Below, piece after piece: positions 35,997-43,785 of a DNA stretch of 64,000 nucleotides (position 1 is its first letter; every line of letters starts with the position of its first letter). This DNA comes from Nitrospirota bacterium. GTDB taxonomy: Bacteria > Nitrospirota > Thermodesulfovibrionia > UBA6902. The notes beneath the pieces are model-generated. The model had not been told where the DNA came from and searched no databases. It saw nothing but the letters and a program-made list of their open reading frames with translations. The DNA is taken from the NCBI GenBank assembly GCA_016214845.1, contig JACRMS010000028.1:80070-144069 (forward strand). Direction: 5' to 3'. A program made the translations under genes and the position numbers.

Positions 35997-36428
35997 TTAA
36001 TTTAATGTTAATGCCTCAGGTTTTTGTGCCTGATGAGTATGTTCAGCCCCGCCGAATACCTTCAGCTTTGTAAGCTGCTGCCTTCCGAGCCTGTTTTTGG
36101 GAAGCATCCCTTTTACCGCTTCCATAACTATCCGTTCTGGAGAATCCTTCATGATTTCCTTAGCGGTCTTCATCTTTATTCCCCCCGGATAACCGGAATG
36201 ATGGTAGTATGCCTTTTTTTCAAGCTTGTTGCCTGTAAAACGGATCTTGGCTGCATTTACAACAATAACAAAGTCACCGGTATCTGCGTGAGGCGTAAAG
36301 ATAGGTTTGTTCTTGCCTCTCAGTATGGCCGCTACCCTTGCTGCAAGCCTTCCAACAACCATGCCATCAGCATCAACAAGATGCCATTTTCTTACAACGT
36401 CTGTATTCTTTGCAAATAAAGTCTTCAT
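35997..36428 (-). CDS. rplM: 50S ribosomal protein L13
   Basis: The 143-residue protein has the L13 pattern [47 protein letters not shown] and [11 protein letters not shown]. It is an early-assembly large-subunit protein. A GTGAGGT site lies 5 bases upstream, and a good promoter lies at 36473-36502. It heads the rplM-rpsI-argC-argJ group. Confidence 0.98.
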
Positions 36429-36564: not shown

Positions 36565-36732
36565 CTATACCCTGTCACATGAACGGTTAGTCAGTTTTTC
36601 CCAGGTGCCGGCGTCCATTTCATTTATATATTCTTCTATCGAAAAGTTTTTGCCGCATTCCATGCAGCGCAGTTGTACGGACTTTCAGCCTACTTTCAAA
36701 TTGAGTTTGCCGTTACATTCTTTACATTTCAT
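36565..36732 (-). CDS. Putative dual-CxxC small selenoprotein with in-frame UGA (Sec) codon
   Basis: Starting at ATG 36732 the frame reads MKCKECNGKLNLKVG, then TGA at codon 16 (36687-36685), then KSVQLRCMECGKNFSIEEY and on to RSCDRV at a TAG (36567-36565). The product is 55 residues if the UGA is read. CKEC (3-6) and CMEC (23-26) form a zinc-ribbon-like pair, and the UGA sits between them. As I recall it, a family labelled 'dual CXXC motif small (seleno)protein' has Sec or Cys at this place. A strong site (AGGTGGAG, 8 bases upstream) precedes the ATG. Just after the UGA, CCGUA can pair with UGCGG around an inner UGC/GCA stem, a possible SECIS. Alternative: a pseudogene with a nonsense mutation. 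Confidence 0.6.
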
Positions 36733-37127
36733 GTCTCTTCTCCACCTTTGAAATTTGTCAGCCTTAAAAAATCACTACTTAATAATAATATAATCATTCC
36801 ATAAAAGTGAAGTTATTTTCCACAGTTAACAAAAAACAGGCTGTTCTCAATTTTGTTCCTTTCCTGAACATATTGCAATATTTTTTCTTGATTTTTCTCT
36901 AACCAATCTGTTAAAAAGAATAACATCTGTATTTTTTTTTACACGGTAGCTTTACAATTTTATATTTTCTTTAATACTATTCAGATCGCTAATAAATTTA
37001 TAAAAGAGAGATCCCTATTGGTTGCAAAAGAACATCTCCTTAACAAATTAAACTTGGCGCTATTTAATTATCTTCTTGACCTCCAGGCTTCTAATCTTCG
37101 TATATTGTTGCTATCAGAGAGATGACA
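36733..37127. other. AT-rich intergenic region before the KS cluster
   Basis: This 395-base gap separates two divergent transcription units and must hold their promoters. A weak pair TTGACC/TATATT with a 19-base spacer lies about 25-50 bases before the FabG-like gene. I see no ORF or RNA gene. A single DnaA-box-like TTTTCCACA is not meaningful alone. Confidence 0.4.
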
Positions 37128-37868
37128 ATGAAAAACAAAACGGTCCTTATCAGCGGCGCAACAAGGGGTATAGGCAGGGCCATAGCGGTTGAATTGGCGG
37201 GGGAAGGCGCTAATATCAGTTTTAATTTTCTGAAAAGCGGCAGAGAGGCTGCTGAACTGGAAAATGAGATAAAAAACCTGGGCGTCAACGCTAAGTCATT
37301 TCAGGCTGATATAAAAGATTTTCAAGCGGTGAGGTCATGGGTTGATCAAACAAAAGAACTGTTCGGCAGGATCGACATTGTGATTAACAATGCCGGTGTA
37401 ATTAAAGACAAGGCGCTTGCCCTGATGGAATCTGATGATTGGCGGGAAGTGCTCAATACTAATTTGGAAGGGACGTTCAACCTTACGCGGGCCGCAATCG
37501 TGACACTGATGAAACAGAAAAGCGGCGTTATAATTAACATCACATCAGTAAGCGGTATTGTGGGCCTGCCAAGGCAAACCAATTACTCGGCATCCAAGGC
37601 CGGGGTAATCGGCTTTACAAAATCTCTTGCAAAAGAGGTCGCCCCTTACAATATCAGGGTCAACGCAGTTGCTCCCGGTTTTGTCGAAACAGATATGCTT
37701 AAAGTTCTCACAGAGGAATATAAGGACCAGATATTAAAACAAATACCATTAAGCAGACTGGGCAAGCCTCAGGAAGTGGCAAAGATGGTTAAATTCTTGG
37801 TAAGCGATAACGCCGCATATATAACAGGCCAGACAATAGCCATAGACGGCGGAATGAGCATGGTGTAG
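37128..37868 (+). CDS. FabG-like 3-oxoacyl-ACP reductase (ketoreductase)
   Basis: The short-chain dehydrogenase of 246 residues has the cofactor motif SGATRGIGRAIA, the NNAG motif (VINNAGV) and the catalytic triad ITSVSG...YSASKAG (Ser, Tyr, Lys). It ends in GQTIAIDGGMSMV. It reduces 3-ketoacyl-ACP. ATG 37128 has GAGAG at 6-7 bases and is preferred over ATG 37122. It opens a run of seven close or overlapping genes that together make a type II fatty-acid/polyketide assembly unit. Confidence 0.92.
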   Translation: MKNKTVLISGATRGIGRAIAVELAGEGANISFNFLKSGREAAELENEIKNLGVNAKSFQADIKDFQAVRSWVDQTKELFGRIDIVINNAGVIKDKALALMESDDWREVLNTNLEGTFNLTRAAIVTLMKQKSGVIINITSVSGIVGLPRQTNYSASKAGVIGFTKSLAKEVAPYNIRVNAVAPGFVETDMLKVLTEEYKDQILKQIPLSRLGKPQEVAKMVKFLVSDNAAYITGQTIAIDGGMSMV

Positions 37869-37871
37869 GAA

Positions 37872-39104
37872 ATGCAAAAAAGGCGGATCGTGATAACGGG
37901 GTTAGGTGTAATCGCCCCTAACGGCATCGGCAAAGAAGATTTCTGGTCGGCTTTAAAAGAAGGCCGTTCAGGCATCAGGCCTATCAGCAGATTTGATACC
38001 GGAGGGTTCAAGTGTAAATTGGGCGGTGAGATCAACAATTTTAAACCCACATATTTTTTAGGATACAAGGGATTGAAAAACCTTGACAGGACTTCAAGGC
38101 TGTTATGCTCCGCCGCAAAATTGGCAATGGAAGACTCCGGATTAAAAATCAACTATGACAATACGGATGATTTCGGTGTCTGCACCGGGACCACTTTATC
38201 CTCTCTCTGGAACTTTGCCGAATTTGACAAGGAGGCCATACAGGACGGTCCCCTCTTTACAAATGTCGCGCTCTTCCCCGGCACTGTAATAAACGCCGCT
38301 TCAAGCCAGGTCTCGATCAGGTTTAATATCCAGGGATTCAACACAACCGTCTCAACCGGCTTCAGCTCAAGTTTAGACGCGTTAAGATATGCTGTGGATT
38401 TTATCAGGCTCGGACGTATCAAGGCGGTCCTGGTGGGAGGCGTAGAAAGCCTTTCCCTGGCAAATTTCCTCGGATTTTACCGTCTGGGTTTTTTTGCGGG
38501 CATAAAAGGAGAGGAAGTGTCCTGCCCGTTTGATAAAAGAAGGAACGGGATCATATTAGGCGAAGGCGCTTCCGTCATTGTGGTAGAAGACGAAGAGCAT
38601 GCTCAAAAAAGAAAGGCAGCTATTTATGCAGAGATTAAAGGCATGGGTAATTGCTTTAGCGCATACAAGATGGGGAAATATGAGCCGGAAGCAAAGGGAT
38701 TAAAAGAAAGCATGAAAAAGGCCGTCGGCAATTCGGGACTGAACTTTACCGATATTGATTATATAAGCGCATCGGCCAATTCAGTGCCTGAACAGGACCG
38801 GTTGGAGACAAAGGCGGTAAAAGATGTTTTCGGCAAATCTGCTTACAATGTCCCCACGACTTCCATCAAATCAATGACAGGGGAGACCTTCAGCGCGAGC
38901 GGACTGCTTCAGGTCGCAGCTTCAATGGGAAGCATCGTTAATGGTTTTGTCCCGCCTACGATCAACTACAAAGTGAGAGACAATGATTGCGACCTTGATT
39001 ATGTTGCGAACAAATCACGGACAGCGAGGGTGAACAACGTGTTAATTAATAATTTCGGGCCTGGCGGGAGCAATGCATCTGTAATTATATCCAGATACCA
39101 ATAG
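37872..39104 (+). CDS. Ketosynthase-like protein without catalytic residues (chain-length-factor-like, KS-beta)
   Basis: The 410-residue FabF-fold protein aligns end to end with ketosynthases but has lost the triad. Where active KS has TACA, it has STGFSS (Cys replaced by Phe). The AHGTGT motif reads SASANSV (His lost), and KSMLGHT reads KSMTGETF (His to Glu). This matches the KS-beta/chain-length factor concept of type II polyketide synthases, where a dead KS partners an active one. It starts three bases after the FabG-like gene and is followed by the ACP. It probably pairs with the active KS at 39783-41006. Confidence 0.85.
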   Translation: MQKRRIVITGLGVIAPNGIGKEDFWSALKEGRSGIRPISRFDTGGFKCKLGGEINNFKPTYFLGYKGLKNLDRTSRLLCSAAKLAMEDSGLKINYDNTDDFGVCTGTTLSSLWNFAEFDKEAIQDGPLFTNVALFPGTVINAASSQVSIRFNIQGFNTTVSTGFSSSLDALRYAVDFIRLGRIKAVLVGGVESLSLANFLGFYRLGFFAGIKGEEVSCPFDKRRNGIILGEGASVIVVEDEEHAQKRKAAIYAEIKGMGNCFSAYKMGKYEPEAKGLKESMKKAVGNSGLNFTDIDYISASANSVPEQDRLETKAVKDVFGKSAYNVPTTSIKSMTGETFSASGLLQVAASMGSIVNGFVPPTINYKVRDNDCDLDYVANKSRTARVNNVLINNFGPGGSNASVIISRYQ

Positions 39105-39112
39105 GAGGTTAA

Positions 39113-39352
39113 ATGTCAAACAACTACGAAGAAGAGATCAGGCAATTAGTCTCGGATATTACCGAGGTCCCGGCGGGAAAGCTTACAGCCGATGCGGACT
39201 TTTTTAAGGACTTGAATATTGACTCCTTAAAGGCAATCGAGATAGTCGCTGCATTTGAAAAGAAGTACCGTGTCATTATCCCTGAACAGGACATTCCGAA
39301 GATAAGAAATCTCAGGCAGATAGTTGAATATACCAAACAACTTAAAAAATGA
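39113..39352 (+). CDS. Acyl carrier protein
   Basis: This 79-residue ACP carries the phosphopantetheine Ser in the motif LNIDSLKAIEIV (about residue 39). It is acidic and four-helical. AGGAGG lies just upstream of ATG 39113. It overlaps the dehydratase gene by 4 bases (ATGA-type junction). As a cluster-specific ACP it likely carries the growing acyl chain for the neighbouring KS pair. Confidence 0.93.
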   Translation: MSNNYEEEIRQLVSDITEVPAGKLTADADFFKDLNIDSLKAIEIVAAFEKKYRVIIPEQDIPKIRNLRQIVEYTKQLKK

Positions 39353-39786
39353 AATGGGATTTAGAAAAAATTAAATCCGTCCTGCCGCAGCGGGAGCCGT
39401 TTATTTTCATTGATGAGGTAATCGATATTGAAGGCACGGAAAAAGTTGTGGCAACCAAATACGTCAAAGGCACGGAGGGCTTTTTTGAAGGGCATTTCCC
39501 CGGCAAACCCATTATGCCAGGGGTCTTAATTATAGAAGCAATGGCACAGGCCTCAATAATTCTTTATTATCTATGTAAACCAGAGATAGCCAAGACAAAA
39601 CCAGATTATTATTTAGGTAAAGTAAAGGCTGAATTCTTTGCGCCGGTACTCCCTGGTGATAGGCTTATATTAGAGGCTATCAATGTAAAAATTATAAGTG
39701 AAGCCGGAGTGGTTGATACTTTAGCTCGAGTTGGTGATAAGATTGTGGCTAAAGCAAACCTTGTGATTAGCATTCAGAGAAGATGA
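39349..39786 (+). CDS. FabZ-like 3-hydroxyacyl-ACP dehydratase
   Basis: This 145-residue hot-dog-fold protein contains the FabZ helix motif GHFPGKPIMPGVLIIEAMAQ with catalytic His and Glu, and starts with LPQREPFIFIDEV. It removes water from 3-hydroxyacyl-ACP to give trans-2-enoyl-ACP. It overlaps both neighbours by 4 bases. Without an enoyl reductase gene in the cluster, repeated action would leave conjugated double bases in the chain, that is, a polyene-type product (inference). Its second half is more AT-rich than the flanks. Confidence 0.9.
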   Translation: MKWDLEKIKSVLPQREPFIFIDEVIDIEGTEKVVATKYVKGTEGFFEGHFPGKPIMPGVLIIEAMAQASIILYYLCKPEIAKTKPDYYLGKVKAEFFAPVLPGDRLILEAINVKIISEAGVVDTLARVGDKIVAKANLVISIQRR

Positions 39787-41006
39787 ATAACAGGAGGGTC
39801 GTAGTCACCGGACTGGGTGTAGTTTCATCCGTAGGCATCGGCAAAGATGCGTTCTGGAACGCCATACTAAACGGCAAATCCGGCATAGGCAAGGTTTCTT
39901 CATTTGACACCGGCAATCACAGGTGCCACAATGCCGGAGAGATAAAGAACTTCGTCCCTGAAGAGTTCATCGCCAGGAGAAAAGTCAAATTCTTCGGACG
40001 CACTTCTCAATTGGCAATAGCCGCAACCGCTTTGGCTTTTAATGACGCGAAACTGCCGCTCAAATATATTGATAAAAAAAGGACGGGTGTATTTATCGGG
40101 ACCACAATGGGGGAAAAGCCGCTGGAGGAAGCCATTGATTCATGGTTCATGGAAGGAGCGGACAAAATCAGCAGGGCCAAGATATTGCAGGCTTCGGCCA
40201 ATAACATATCCGCCAATATCGGCATTTACTTTAAACTCGAAGGGCCGAATTATCTCATCCCCACTGCCTGCGCTGCCGGAAACTACGCGATAGGCTACGG
40301 GGCTGATCTAATACGCAGAGGAGACCTGGACTGCGCGATAGCGGGAGGCGCGGACGCGTTCTCCAAACTCGCGTTCACCGGATTTCAGCGCGTATACGCG
40401 ATGTCTCCTGAGAAATGCCAGCCGTTTGATAAAAACAGAAAAGGTATGCTTGTCGGCGAAGGCGCCGGTATCCTTGTCCTTGAATCTTTAGAGTCTGCAT
40501 TAAAAAGAGACGCGGACATCTATGCGGAGATCCTCGGCTACGGACTTAGCTGCGACGCTTTCCATATGACGGCATCCGATTCTGACGGGATAGAGAAGGT
40601 CATGCTTAAGGCATTAAAAGACGCGGACATCGGCAAAGAAGAAGTTGATTATATAAGCGCGCACGGGACAGGCACGCAGGGCAACGACAGGATCGAATGC
40701 GCCGCGATCAGAAAGGTTTTCAAAGAGCAATATAAAACAATCCCTGTCAGTTCAATTAAGTCCATGCTGGGTCATACGATGGGCGCTGCCTCGGCAATCG
40801 AGGCGTTAACATGCTGCCTTATTGTTAAAGAAGATATTATCCCGCCGACAATGAATTTTGAGACGCCTGATCCGAAATGTGACATTGACTGTGTCCCTAA
40901 CAGGGCAAGGAGAAGGAGAGTCAACATTGCCCTGAACAACGGCTTTGCCTTCGGCGGAAATAATTCCTGTTTGGTGATTAAAAAAATGGAGCGAATAAAT
41001 GTCTGA
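39783..41006 (+). CDS. Beta-ketoacyl-ACP synthase (active FabF-type KS)
   Basis: The 407-residue KS keeps the catalytic set: Cys in IPTACAAGNYAIG, His in ISAHGTGTQGND and His in IKSMLGHTMGAAS, with NNGFAFGGNN near the C-terminus. It performs decarboxylative Claisen condensation. It overlaps fabZ-like and the oxidoreductase gene. It is the natural active partner of the dead KS at 37872. GC is near the genome average, unlike the next two genes. Confidence 0.93.
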   Translation: MNNRRVVVTGLGVVSSVGIGKDAFWNAILNGKSGIGKVSSFDTGNHRCHNAGEIKNFVPEEFIARRKVKFFGRTSQLAIAATALAFNDAKLPLKYIDKKRTGVFIGTTMGEKPLEEAIDSWFMEGADKISRAKILQASANNISANIGIYFKLEGPNYLIPTACAAGNYAIGYGADLIRRGDLDCAIAGGADAFSKLAFTGFQRVYAMSPEKCQPFDKNRKGMLVGEGAGILVLESLESALKRDADIYAEILGYGLSCDAFHMTASDSDGIEKVMLKALKDADIGKEEVDYISAHGTGTQGNDRIECAAIRKVFKEQYKTIPVSSIKSMLGHTMGAASAIEALTCCLIVKEDIIPPTMNFETPDPKCDIDCVPNRARRRRVNIALNNGFAFGGNNSCLVIKKMERINV

Positions 41007-42477
41007 AAAATATGATGTCATTATAATTGGTGCAGGCATAGGGGGGTTAACAGCCGCAGCTATCTTAGCAAGAAATGGCAAAAAGGTATTAGTATCAGAG
41101 AAAAATCCCGTACCAGGAGGATATGCGGTCAATTTTTGTAGAGGAGAATTTGAATTCGATGTATCTTTACATCTAATAAATAACTTAGATCGTAAGGGAG
41201 GAATTTCTTATAGTATTTTAGAAGAATGCGGCATTAAAGATAAATTACAAATGCTGTCTCCCAAATATTTATACCGTTCTATTTTCCCTGATTTCGATAT
41301 CCGTGTTCCTCAGTGCAATCCCAAATCGTACATAAAAATCTTAATAAGCCGATTCCCAAAAGAGAAAGAAGGTATTGAAAAATTATGCGAAGTTATGTCA
41401 AGCATTTTCTATAAAGTCGAAGGGTTACAAGGAACGAAAATCTCTACCGCTGATTTTGTATCATATCTATATACCACCTCTCAAGATATGTTAGACAAGT
41501 TTATAGAAGATGAAAAATTAAAAGCTCTAATTTTACAATTGTGGCCATATTACGGGTCTCCGCCAACAAAATTGTCTGCGTTTTATTTTTGTTATCCTTG
41601 GCATGATTACACCTACATAGGAGGATTTTATCCTGCCGGAGGCGGCAAAACCATCTCCAGTGCATTAGTGGAAGTTATTAAAAAGAATAACGGTGCAATA
41701 AAACTTAACAGTAAAGTGGAGCGTATTCTAATAAAAGATAATATCTCCTATGGGATTGAAAACAGTCAAGGCGATGTTATCCAGGGTAAAAGAATTATCT
41801 CTAACATCGATGCCCTATCCACATTTCATAATTTAGTCGGCAATAAACACGTTTCAGCAGACTTTATAAAAAAAATAGATGGAATGCAACCGTCGTTATC
41901 TGCCTTTGTCGTATATTTAGGATTGAATGAACATTTTAAAAAAGTCAATAAAGAAGATTATATAATATTCATTAATTCATCATACAAAACAGATACACAA
42001 TTTATTTCTTTTATAGAAAATGACGCCAATAATGTGCCCCTTAGCCTAACACTTTATTCAAACCTTCCGAGCAATATGGCTACAGGAGGGAATAAATATG
42101 TAATGACTATTATGACATTAGCCGGATATGATTTCTGGAAAAATATGTCACTGGAAGAATATAAAAAGCATAAGAACAAATTTGCATCCATTTTAATTAA
42201 AAGAGCAGAAGAATTTATTCCTAATCTCTCTGCGTACATAGAAAGAATTGAGACAGCATCACCGCTTACTATGGAAAGATATACAGGTAGTTATAAGGGA
42301 GCAATATATGGGTGGAGTCAACTTGTTTCACAAAGCGGGTCAAACCGTCTTAAACAGAACACGCCCATTGACCATTTGTATCTATCAGGCGCCTGGACGC
42401 AACCAGGTAGCGGCATTAAAGGCGTGATGCGTTCTGGAATGAATACAGCTCATAGAATTTTAAAGGAGACCAAATAA
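40999..42477 (+). CDS. CrtI/retinol-saturase-like FAD-dependent oxidoreductase
   Basis: This 492-residue protein starts with the dinucleotide-binding motif VIIIGAGIGGLTAAAILARN, then VLVSEKNPVPGGYAVNF, and ends with the FAD motif YLSGAWTQPGSGIKGVMRSG. This is the phytoene desaturase/retinol saturase family. Within a fatty-acid-like cluster it may desaturate, saturate or isomerise an acyl polyene, as proposed for ladderane loci of anammox bacteria (recalled analogy). Its DNA is strikingly AT-rich (about one third GC by eye), suggesting acquisition from another source. Confidence 0.88.
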   Translation: MSEKYDVIIIGAGIGGLTAAAILARNGKKVLVSEKNPVPGGYAVNFCRGEFEFDVSLHLINNLDRKGGISYSILEECGIKDKLQMLSPKYLYRSIFPDFDIRVPQCNPKSYIKILISRFPKEKEGIEKLCEVMSSIFYKVEGLQGTKISTADFVSYLYTTSQDMLDKFIEDEKLKALILQLWPYYGSPPTKLSAFYFCYPWHDYTYIGGFYPAGGGKTISSALVEVIKKNNGAIKLNSKVERILIKDNISYGIENSQGDVIQGKRIISNIDALSTFHNLVGNKHVSADFIKKIDGMQPSLSAFVVYLGLNEHFKKVNKEDYIIFINSSYKTDTQFISFIENDANNVPLSLTLYSNLPSNMATGGNKYVMTIMTLAGYDFWKNMSLEEYKKHKNKFASILIKRAEEFIPNLSAYIERIETASPLTMERYTGSYKGAIYGWSQLVSQSGSNRLKQNTPIDHLYLSGAWTQPGSGIKGVMRSGMNTAHRILKETK

Positions 42478-43785
42478 ATGTCCCGAAAGGGGAGAGTCGT
42501 CATAACCGGAATTGGGCCTTTTTCGTCAATAGGTTTTGGAAAAGAGCAAACATGGCAGTCACTTATTAAAGGCAAAACCGGACTAACAAAAGAGGACTAT
42601 TTCGTTAACGGAGAAAAGGTGGGCAGCTACTATCAGCATAAAATAACAGGCTTTGATATAAATACATTTGGCATAGATAAAGATATGTTAGAAGATATTA
42701 GAAACTGGAAAGGTCAGGGAGAAGCGCTTGACCTATTTTACTTGATGGCAGGGGTAAAGCTTGCTTTGGATGACAGTGGATTAGAATATACATCAAAAGA
42801 TAATAACAGCAGAGTGGGATTGGTTTTAACACATGAACATCCCGGATCAGACCAATTTTATGAGGATATAATTAATGAATCTTACGAACTATCTCAACAA
42901 AATAAATCAAAGAGAGACTATTTTAATACTATCAGTGCAAGGTTTCTAAAAAGAGGTTATGAACTTCAAACATTTATGTTTCTTTTTCATATTGCAAAGA
43001 CCTTTAATATCCATGGATACTCATTGTTTCTGAATAATGCTTGTGCTTCCGGTTTATATGCAATTGAAGCAGCTTCAGACATTATCAAGAGTGGTAAATG
43101 TGATAAAGTAATTGTCGCAGCGGCAGACCACGGAAGCATGTTTAAGTATCTCTGGTTTAAAGAAATGGGAATGTACCCTAAGGATGGTAAAATAAAACCT
43201 TTTGATAAAAATCGAGATGGCTTTATTGCCGGAGATGGTGGCGCCGGAATCGTTTTAGAACATTTAGACTCTGCCTTAAAAAGAAAGGCGCACATTTATG
43301 CTGAATATATAGGCGGTGGATTTTCCTTAGAGGGTTGGAAAGTAACTATTCCAGATATGTCAAACACTTCTTATGAAATTGCAATATTAGATGCCATAAG
43401 AACAAGTAAAATCAGAAAAGAAAAAATAGATTTAATAATGCCACATGGCGTTGGGACAAAGGTTACTGATGCTTATGAAGCTAAAGCAATAGAAGCTATT
43501 TTTGGCAAGAATCCTAAAAAACCATTAATTTCAGCGGTCAAGCCATATATTGGTCATAACTTAGGAGGGACAGCACTATTGGAAACTACCATCCTATTAA
43601 TGACGTTAGAGAATAATGTGGTGCTTCCTACTTTAAATAATATTGAGGTTGATACAAGTTTAAGCATTAATTTAGTAAAGAAAAAAAAGATGACAAAACT
43701 AAGGACCGTGATGAAAACAGCATGTGGATTTGCCGGATATAACGCAGCTTGTATTTTCAGGAAAATACGGGAAGCTCGCTTATGA
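42478..43785 (+). CDS. Second, divergent beta-ketoacyl synthase
   Basis: This 435-residue KS has an intact triad: Cys in LNNACASGLYAIEAA, His in MPHGVGTKVTD and His in KPYIGHNLGGTAL. Its N-terminal third departs from the FabF pattern (ENFHEHPGSDQFYED-like acidic region), so it may accept an unusual primer or act as starter or terminator KS. The ATG follows the previous stop directly. It is AT-rich like the preceding gene. The histidine kinase gene overlaps its stop. Confidence 0.88.
   Translation: MSRKGRVVITGIGPFSSIGFGKEQTWQSLIKGKTGLTKEDYFVNGEKVGSYYQHKITGFDINTFGIDKDMLEDIRNWKGQGEALDLFYLMAGVKLALDDSGLEYTSKDNNSRVGLVLTHEHPGSDQFYEDIINESYELSQQNKSKRDYFNTISARFLKRGYELQTFMFLFHIAKTFNIHGYSLFLNNACASGLYAIEAASDIIKSGKCDKVIVAAADHGSMFKYLWFKEMGMYPKDGKIKPFDKNRDGFIAGDGGAGIVLEHLDSALKRKAHIYAEYIGGGFSLEGWKVTIPDMSNTSYEIAILDAIRTSKIRKEKIDLIMPHGVGTKVTDAYEAKAIEAIFGKNPKKPLISAVKPYIGHNLGGTALLETTILLMTLENNVVLPTLNNIEVDTSLSINLVKKKKMTKLRTVMKTACGFAGYNAACIFRKIREARL

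Follow-up and report, generated by a model that had tools for sequence, protein, structure and literature searches.

In this study, we analysed a 64,000-nucleotide stretch of the Nitrospirota contig JACRMS010000028.1 (the window) and a small minus-strand gene within it that, from sequence comparison, very probably encodes a selenoprotein of 55 residues belonging to the NF041197 / OS_HP3 family. Support comes from its reading frame, its family membership, the exchange of selenocysteine (Sec) and cysteine at one position among its relatives, constraint on both the protein and the RNA, and the presence of the Sec machinery in the same genome, and from these we infer that Sec is inserted at codon 16. 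The family has already been named and catalogued, and the gene described here is a further member of it. What our analyses appear to add is the near-universal presence of the family in one class, a fixed SECIS with frozen codons, and the existence of Cys forms, including some in genomes from which the Sec machinery has apparently disappeared.

Reading frame and family membership

When its in-frame UGA is read as Sec, the gene (Table 1) translates as MKCKECNGKLNLKVGUKSVQLRCMECGKNFSIEEYINEMDAGTWEKLTNRSCDRV, whereas termination at the UGA cuts the frame into pieces of 15 and 39 codons. The table-11 list of ORFs of at least 80 aa holds nothing at this position on the minus strand, as is expected of a frame split at its UGA. 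The initial annotation had described, without naming a strand, a frame of 55 codons that has a ribosome-binding site, a TGA at codon 16 and a proper stop, hidden from ordinary ORF listing and with CxxC pairs flanking the UGA; all of this was borne out, with the pairs being C3xxC6 and C23xxC26 on either side of U16. The same annotation had pointed to a family labelled dual CXXC motif small (seleno)protein, which is NF041197 and whose curated cut-off the protein exceeds.

Table 1. Features of the selenoprotein gene and its downstream neighbour, in window coordinates.
Feature	Position	Strand	Details and basis
rplM (ribosomal protein L13)	35997..36428	-	Next downstream gene; named by sequence and by its neighbour rpsI
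Predicted selenoprotein gene (NF041197, OS_HP3 family)	36565..36732	-	55 codons, ATG start, TAG stop; frame, family match, homologues, invariant Cys
TAG stop codon	36567-36565	-	Sequence
bSECIS-type hairpin	36652..36668	-	GCUGCAU-GGA-AUGCGGC; 7-bp stem, loop GGA at 36661-36659
Codon 16, an in-frame UGA interpreted as selenocysteine	36687-36685	-	Cys codon in 6 homologues
ATG start codon	36732-36730	-	Sequence
Ribosome-binding site AGGTGGAG	36747-36740	-	Ends 7 nt upstream of the ATG

The Sec-containing translation matched NF041197 with a score of 65.1 bits and an E-value of 4.6e-18 over the whole of the profile (1-53/53), for which the curated equivalog cut-off is 40 bits, and all 64 of the aligned relatives matched the same model. 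A Pfam scan of the protein gave no match over cut-off. A 2026 review (PMC13188914) records a Sec form for this family, under the name "Dual CXXC motif small protein (hypothetical protein OS_HP3)", and an earlier review credits OS_HP3 to the 2007 study of Zhang and Gladyshev on an Olavius algarvensis symbiont (PMC9312934; attribution also in PMC2398784). The protein studied here resembles that family in its full-length match, in having Sec between two CxxC motifs, and in the occurrence of both Sec and Cys forms. It differs in its motif, which is VGU as opposed to the RxU of the review, and in its host, which belongs to the Thermodesulfovibrionia (Nitrospirota), whereas the first report concerned a deltaproteobacterium. 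The FmdB-family zinc ribbon (TIGR02605) is likewise a small dual-CxxC ribbon, and its model gave a weak match in 2 of the 64 members, but this is far under family level, and the reported Sec forms of FmdB (CxxU) have Sec at a CxxC position and not between the pairs. In the deep-Sep benchmark, NF041197 / OS_HP3 was the one known selenoprotein family that was missed (PMC12013277), and our results confirm a gene from this family that is invisible in an ordinary ORF listing.

The family is close to universal in the class Thermodesulfovibrionia. Of 101 close relatives, 82 have a member, and among the matches listed each contains exactly one in-frame TGA. Across the phylum, members were identified in 152 of the 396 genomes sampled. 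Most of the named genomes nearby belong to the Nitrospirota, Thermodesulfovibrionia. The family was not found in 19 of the 101 close relatives, 17 of which have selA. We read 73 distinct genes over their full length: 67 have TGA at codon 16 and six have a Cys codon, with nothing else at that position. Homologues have U or C at codon 16 and run on beyond it, contrary to the outcome that the initial annotation had considered, of homologues ending at the UGA.

An alignment of 64 sequences has C3, C6, residue 16, C23 and C26 invariant and Y35, E38, D40, W44, R50 and R54 nearly so, and C52 is present in 58 of the 67 UGA forms. The dN/dS downstream of the UGA was ~0.13, or 0.10 outside the hairpin (indicative figures, as they derive from close pairs that are pooled and related), and the sequence 3' of the UGA is under purifying selection. 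This ratio, the invariant Cys residues, the family match and the recurrence of the same TGA-containing frame in relatives together mean that the observation is not due to chance. TGA also serves as the terminal stop codon of 27 of the 73 family genes, and Sec decoding must therefore be context-dependent.

A SECIS-type hairpin downstream of the UGA

The window hairpin begins 16 nt past the UGA, with 23 nt separating the UGA from the loop (a GG-containing loop at +24), and has an energy of -7.6 kcal/mol; it conforms in loop, stem, spacing and energy to the bacterial SECIS rules as quoted in PMC13188914. When the hairpin that best fits these rules is taken from each gene, the loop starts at +23 or +24 in 66 of the 67 UGA forms, and -7.5 kcal/mol is reached by 49 of the 67, versus only one of the six Cys forms. 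The strong signal for a SECIS comes from comparison between genes. Synonymous variation is frozen solely in codons 22-24 and 26-27, while the same residues vary freely in their codons elsewhere in the gene. Arg22 is CGC in 52 of 52 cases (p 1e-34 versus Arg elsewhere), Thr24 is ACG in 15 of 15, Gly27 is GGC in 44 of 50, and TGC is used at C23 and at C26 in 65 of 67 sequences each. In addition, the closing pair +23/+27 covaries, C at +23 being accompanied by G at +27 in 14 of 16 sequences and T at +23 by G at +27 in only 5 of 46 (Fisher p 4e-8 without correction for relatedness).

Hairpins were weaker on average after shuffling of synonymous codons, with a p of 0.11 for the window and of 0.05 or below for 28 of the 67 UGA forms, this being a weak test for a single sequence. 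For the window sequence folded alone, the minimum-energy fold differs from the hairpin, which is present in the centroid, and there was no excess stability relative to shuffles (z -0.51); an Rfam scan of the gene gave nothing above the gathering score. The stem that had been proposed in the initial annotation, CCGUA/UGCGG, is not the conserved one, which is GCUGCAU/AUGCGGC. The 5' arm of the former falls in codons 18-19, and it was rejected as the SECIS stem because those codons vary freely at synonymous sites.

In the mechanism we propose, SelB with Sec-tRNA(Sec) would bind the hairpin 3' of the UGA, the UGA at codon 16 would be decoded as Sec, and the ribosome would then terminate at the TAG. 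A SECIS at a fixed position in a near-universal family provides a clean model for Sec insertion.

Selenocysteine machinery and apparent loss of selenocysteine use

Of selA, selB, selC and selD, whose absence had been put forward in the initial annotation as grounds for abandoning its reading, all were found over cut-off in the same genome: selA with 624 bits, selB with 359 bits, tRNA-Sec with 73.2 bits and selD with 330 bits. The genes for SelA, SelB and tRNA-Sec share a 12-kb region of contig C14, and selD is located apart from them. The latter gene (L012:1486-2430, which corresponds to G000:C18:6917-7831) has an in-frame UGA of its own near its start, in the sequence GGUAAKLG, which is taken to encode the active-site Sec. 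Two tRNA-Sec genes over cut-off were observed in each of the genomes G215 and G091, and in G215 selB also occurs in two full-length copies (on C20 and C27), one of which adjoins a tRNA-Sec.

Across the phylum sample, 141 genomes have both the family and selA, 11 the family only, 33 selA only and 211 neither (Fisher p 4e-60, uncorrected for phylogeny). The 11 genomes with the family only comprise three with Cys forms (G234, G283 and G285) and eight MAGs with UGA forms. Among the three of the latter that were followed up, selB is present in G002 and tRNA-Sec in G091, and missing contigs or incomplete assembly thus likely explains the absence of selA in those two; neither selB nor tRNA-Sec was over cut-off in G011. 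The Cys-form genome G285 has, at C105:4711-5259 and C97:8709-9711, fragments of selA, which adjoin a tRNA-Sec, and of selB, and its use of Sec was apparently lost recently. G234 has no selA and no selB match over cut-off, and the Sec machinery appears to have been lost in both this genome and G285, with its selA/selB relics. Neither selA nor selB was over cut-off in G283, although both genes are present in two other species of the same genus. The other three Cys-form genomes retain selA and selB. The family also represents a clean model for the replacement of Sec by Cys as selenium use is lost.

These results bear on two readings of the UGA that do not involve Sec. If it were a real stop, the gene would be a 15-residue peptide or a pseudogene and its downstream conservation would reflect descent only, a view with which the use of TGA as a genuine stop in these genomes, family genes included, is compatible. 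However, strong purifying selection and an invariant Cys pair lie beyond the UGA, Cys is the exact replacement at the same column in six genomes, and the sequence is kept across ~150 genomes, so that we consider a real stop to be highly improbable. We give equally little credence to the UGA being read by general reassignment or near-cognate suppression, for example as Trp, and not by the Sec system. Such decoding would account for the open frame and nothing more, whereas UGA still terminates genes, members of this family among them, the homologous residue in the examined loci is Cys and never Trp, the Sec machinery co-occurs with the family, and the UGA forms have a SECIS-like constraint on their RNA.

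Predicted fold, gene neighbourhood and possible function

An AlphaFold model of modest confidence (pLDDT 70, pTM 0.44) has strands at residues 9-14, 19-23 and 29-31, followed by helices at 32-36 and 41-48. The best Foldseek matches to this model, none of them significant, included the zinc-ribbon domains of RNA polymerase subunits, topoisomerase I and ATCase. A sequence search of solved structures gave weak matches to zinc fingers and ribbons and nothing stronger, and weak profile similarity to S27e, HypA, IF-2 beta and FmdB-type ribbons was seen among family members. The most likely functional reading, in which we have about even confidence, is that of a predicted zinc ribbon with a redox-active Sec. 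In this reading, a single zinc would be held by C3, C6, C23 and C26 in a ribbon-like fold. Sec16 would lie in the loop that joins the two knuckles and serve as the redox or metal-reactive residue, and C52, which is mostly conserved, may perhaps be its partner.

It is also possible, although we incline against it, that the selenoprotein has a role other than redox, either in structural metal binding, with Sec or Cys at position 16 as an extra ligand, or in binding to nucleic acids or the ribosome. The zinc-ribbon character of the protein, its weak similarity to the ribbons listed above and the non-significant fold matches to RNA polymerase subunit and ATCase zinc domains would all accord with such a role. 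However, the four invariant Cys residues are already enough for zinc. Sec is an expensive residue which, in selenoproteins that have been characterised, is located mostly at redox or metal-reactive sites, and we retain the redox-active Sec as the preferred reading.

No neighbour is common to all 46 loci that were compared. The gene neighbours rplM/rpsI in 10 of these, and in the window's own lineage it precedes rplM–rpsI–argC–argJ. A CxxCxxCC (PF03692) gene is directly downstream in eight of the 46 loci, representing four families (L077, L082, L084, L091, L098, L102, L104 and L105), a second Cys-cluster gene, without a Pfam match, is upstream on the opposite strand in seven (L048, L082, L084, L098, L099, L104 and L105), and NYN_YacP is downstream in seven. 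The Cys-cluster neighbours are a hint as to function and no proof of it. A more ambitious proposal, which we regard as speculative and rather unlikely, is that the protein is a one-per-genome core selenoprotein of the Thermodesulfovibrionia whose Sec, between the zinc-ribbon knuckles, would act as a redox or soft-metal switch, linked functionally with the adjacent CxxCxxCC-type metal-binding proteins of several families.

Elsewhere in the window, positions 37122-43785 of the plus strand contain a fabG-like reductase, three ketosynthase-like genes, a FabZ-like dehydratase and an FAD oxidoreductase, a cluster that resembles, on visual inspection of the translations, a small locus of the polyketide or aryl-polyene type.
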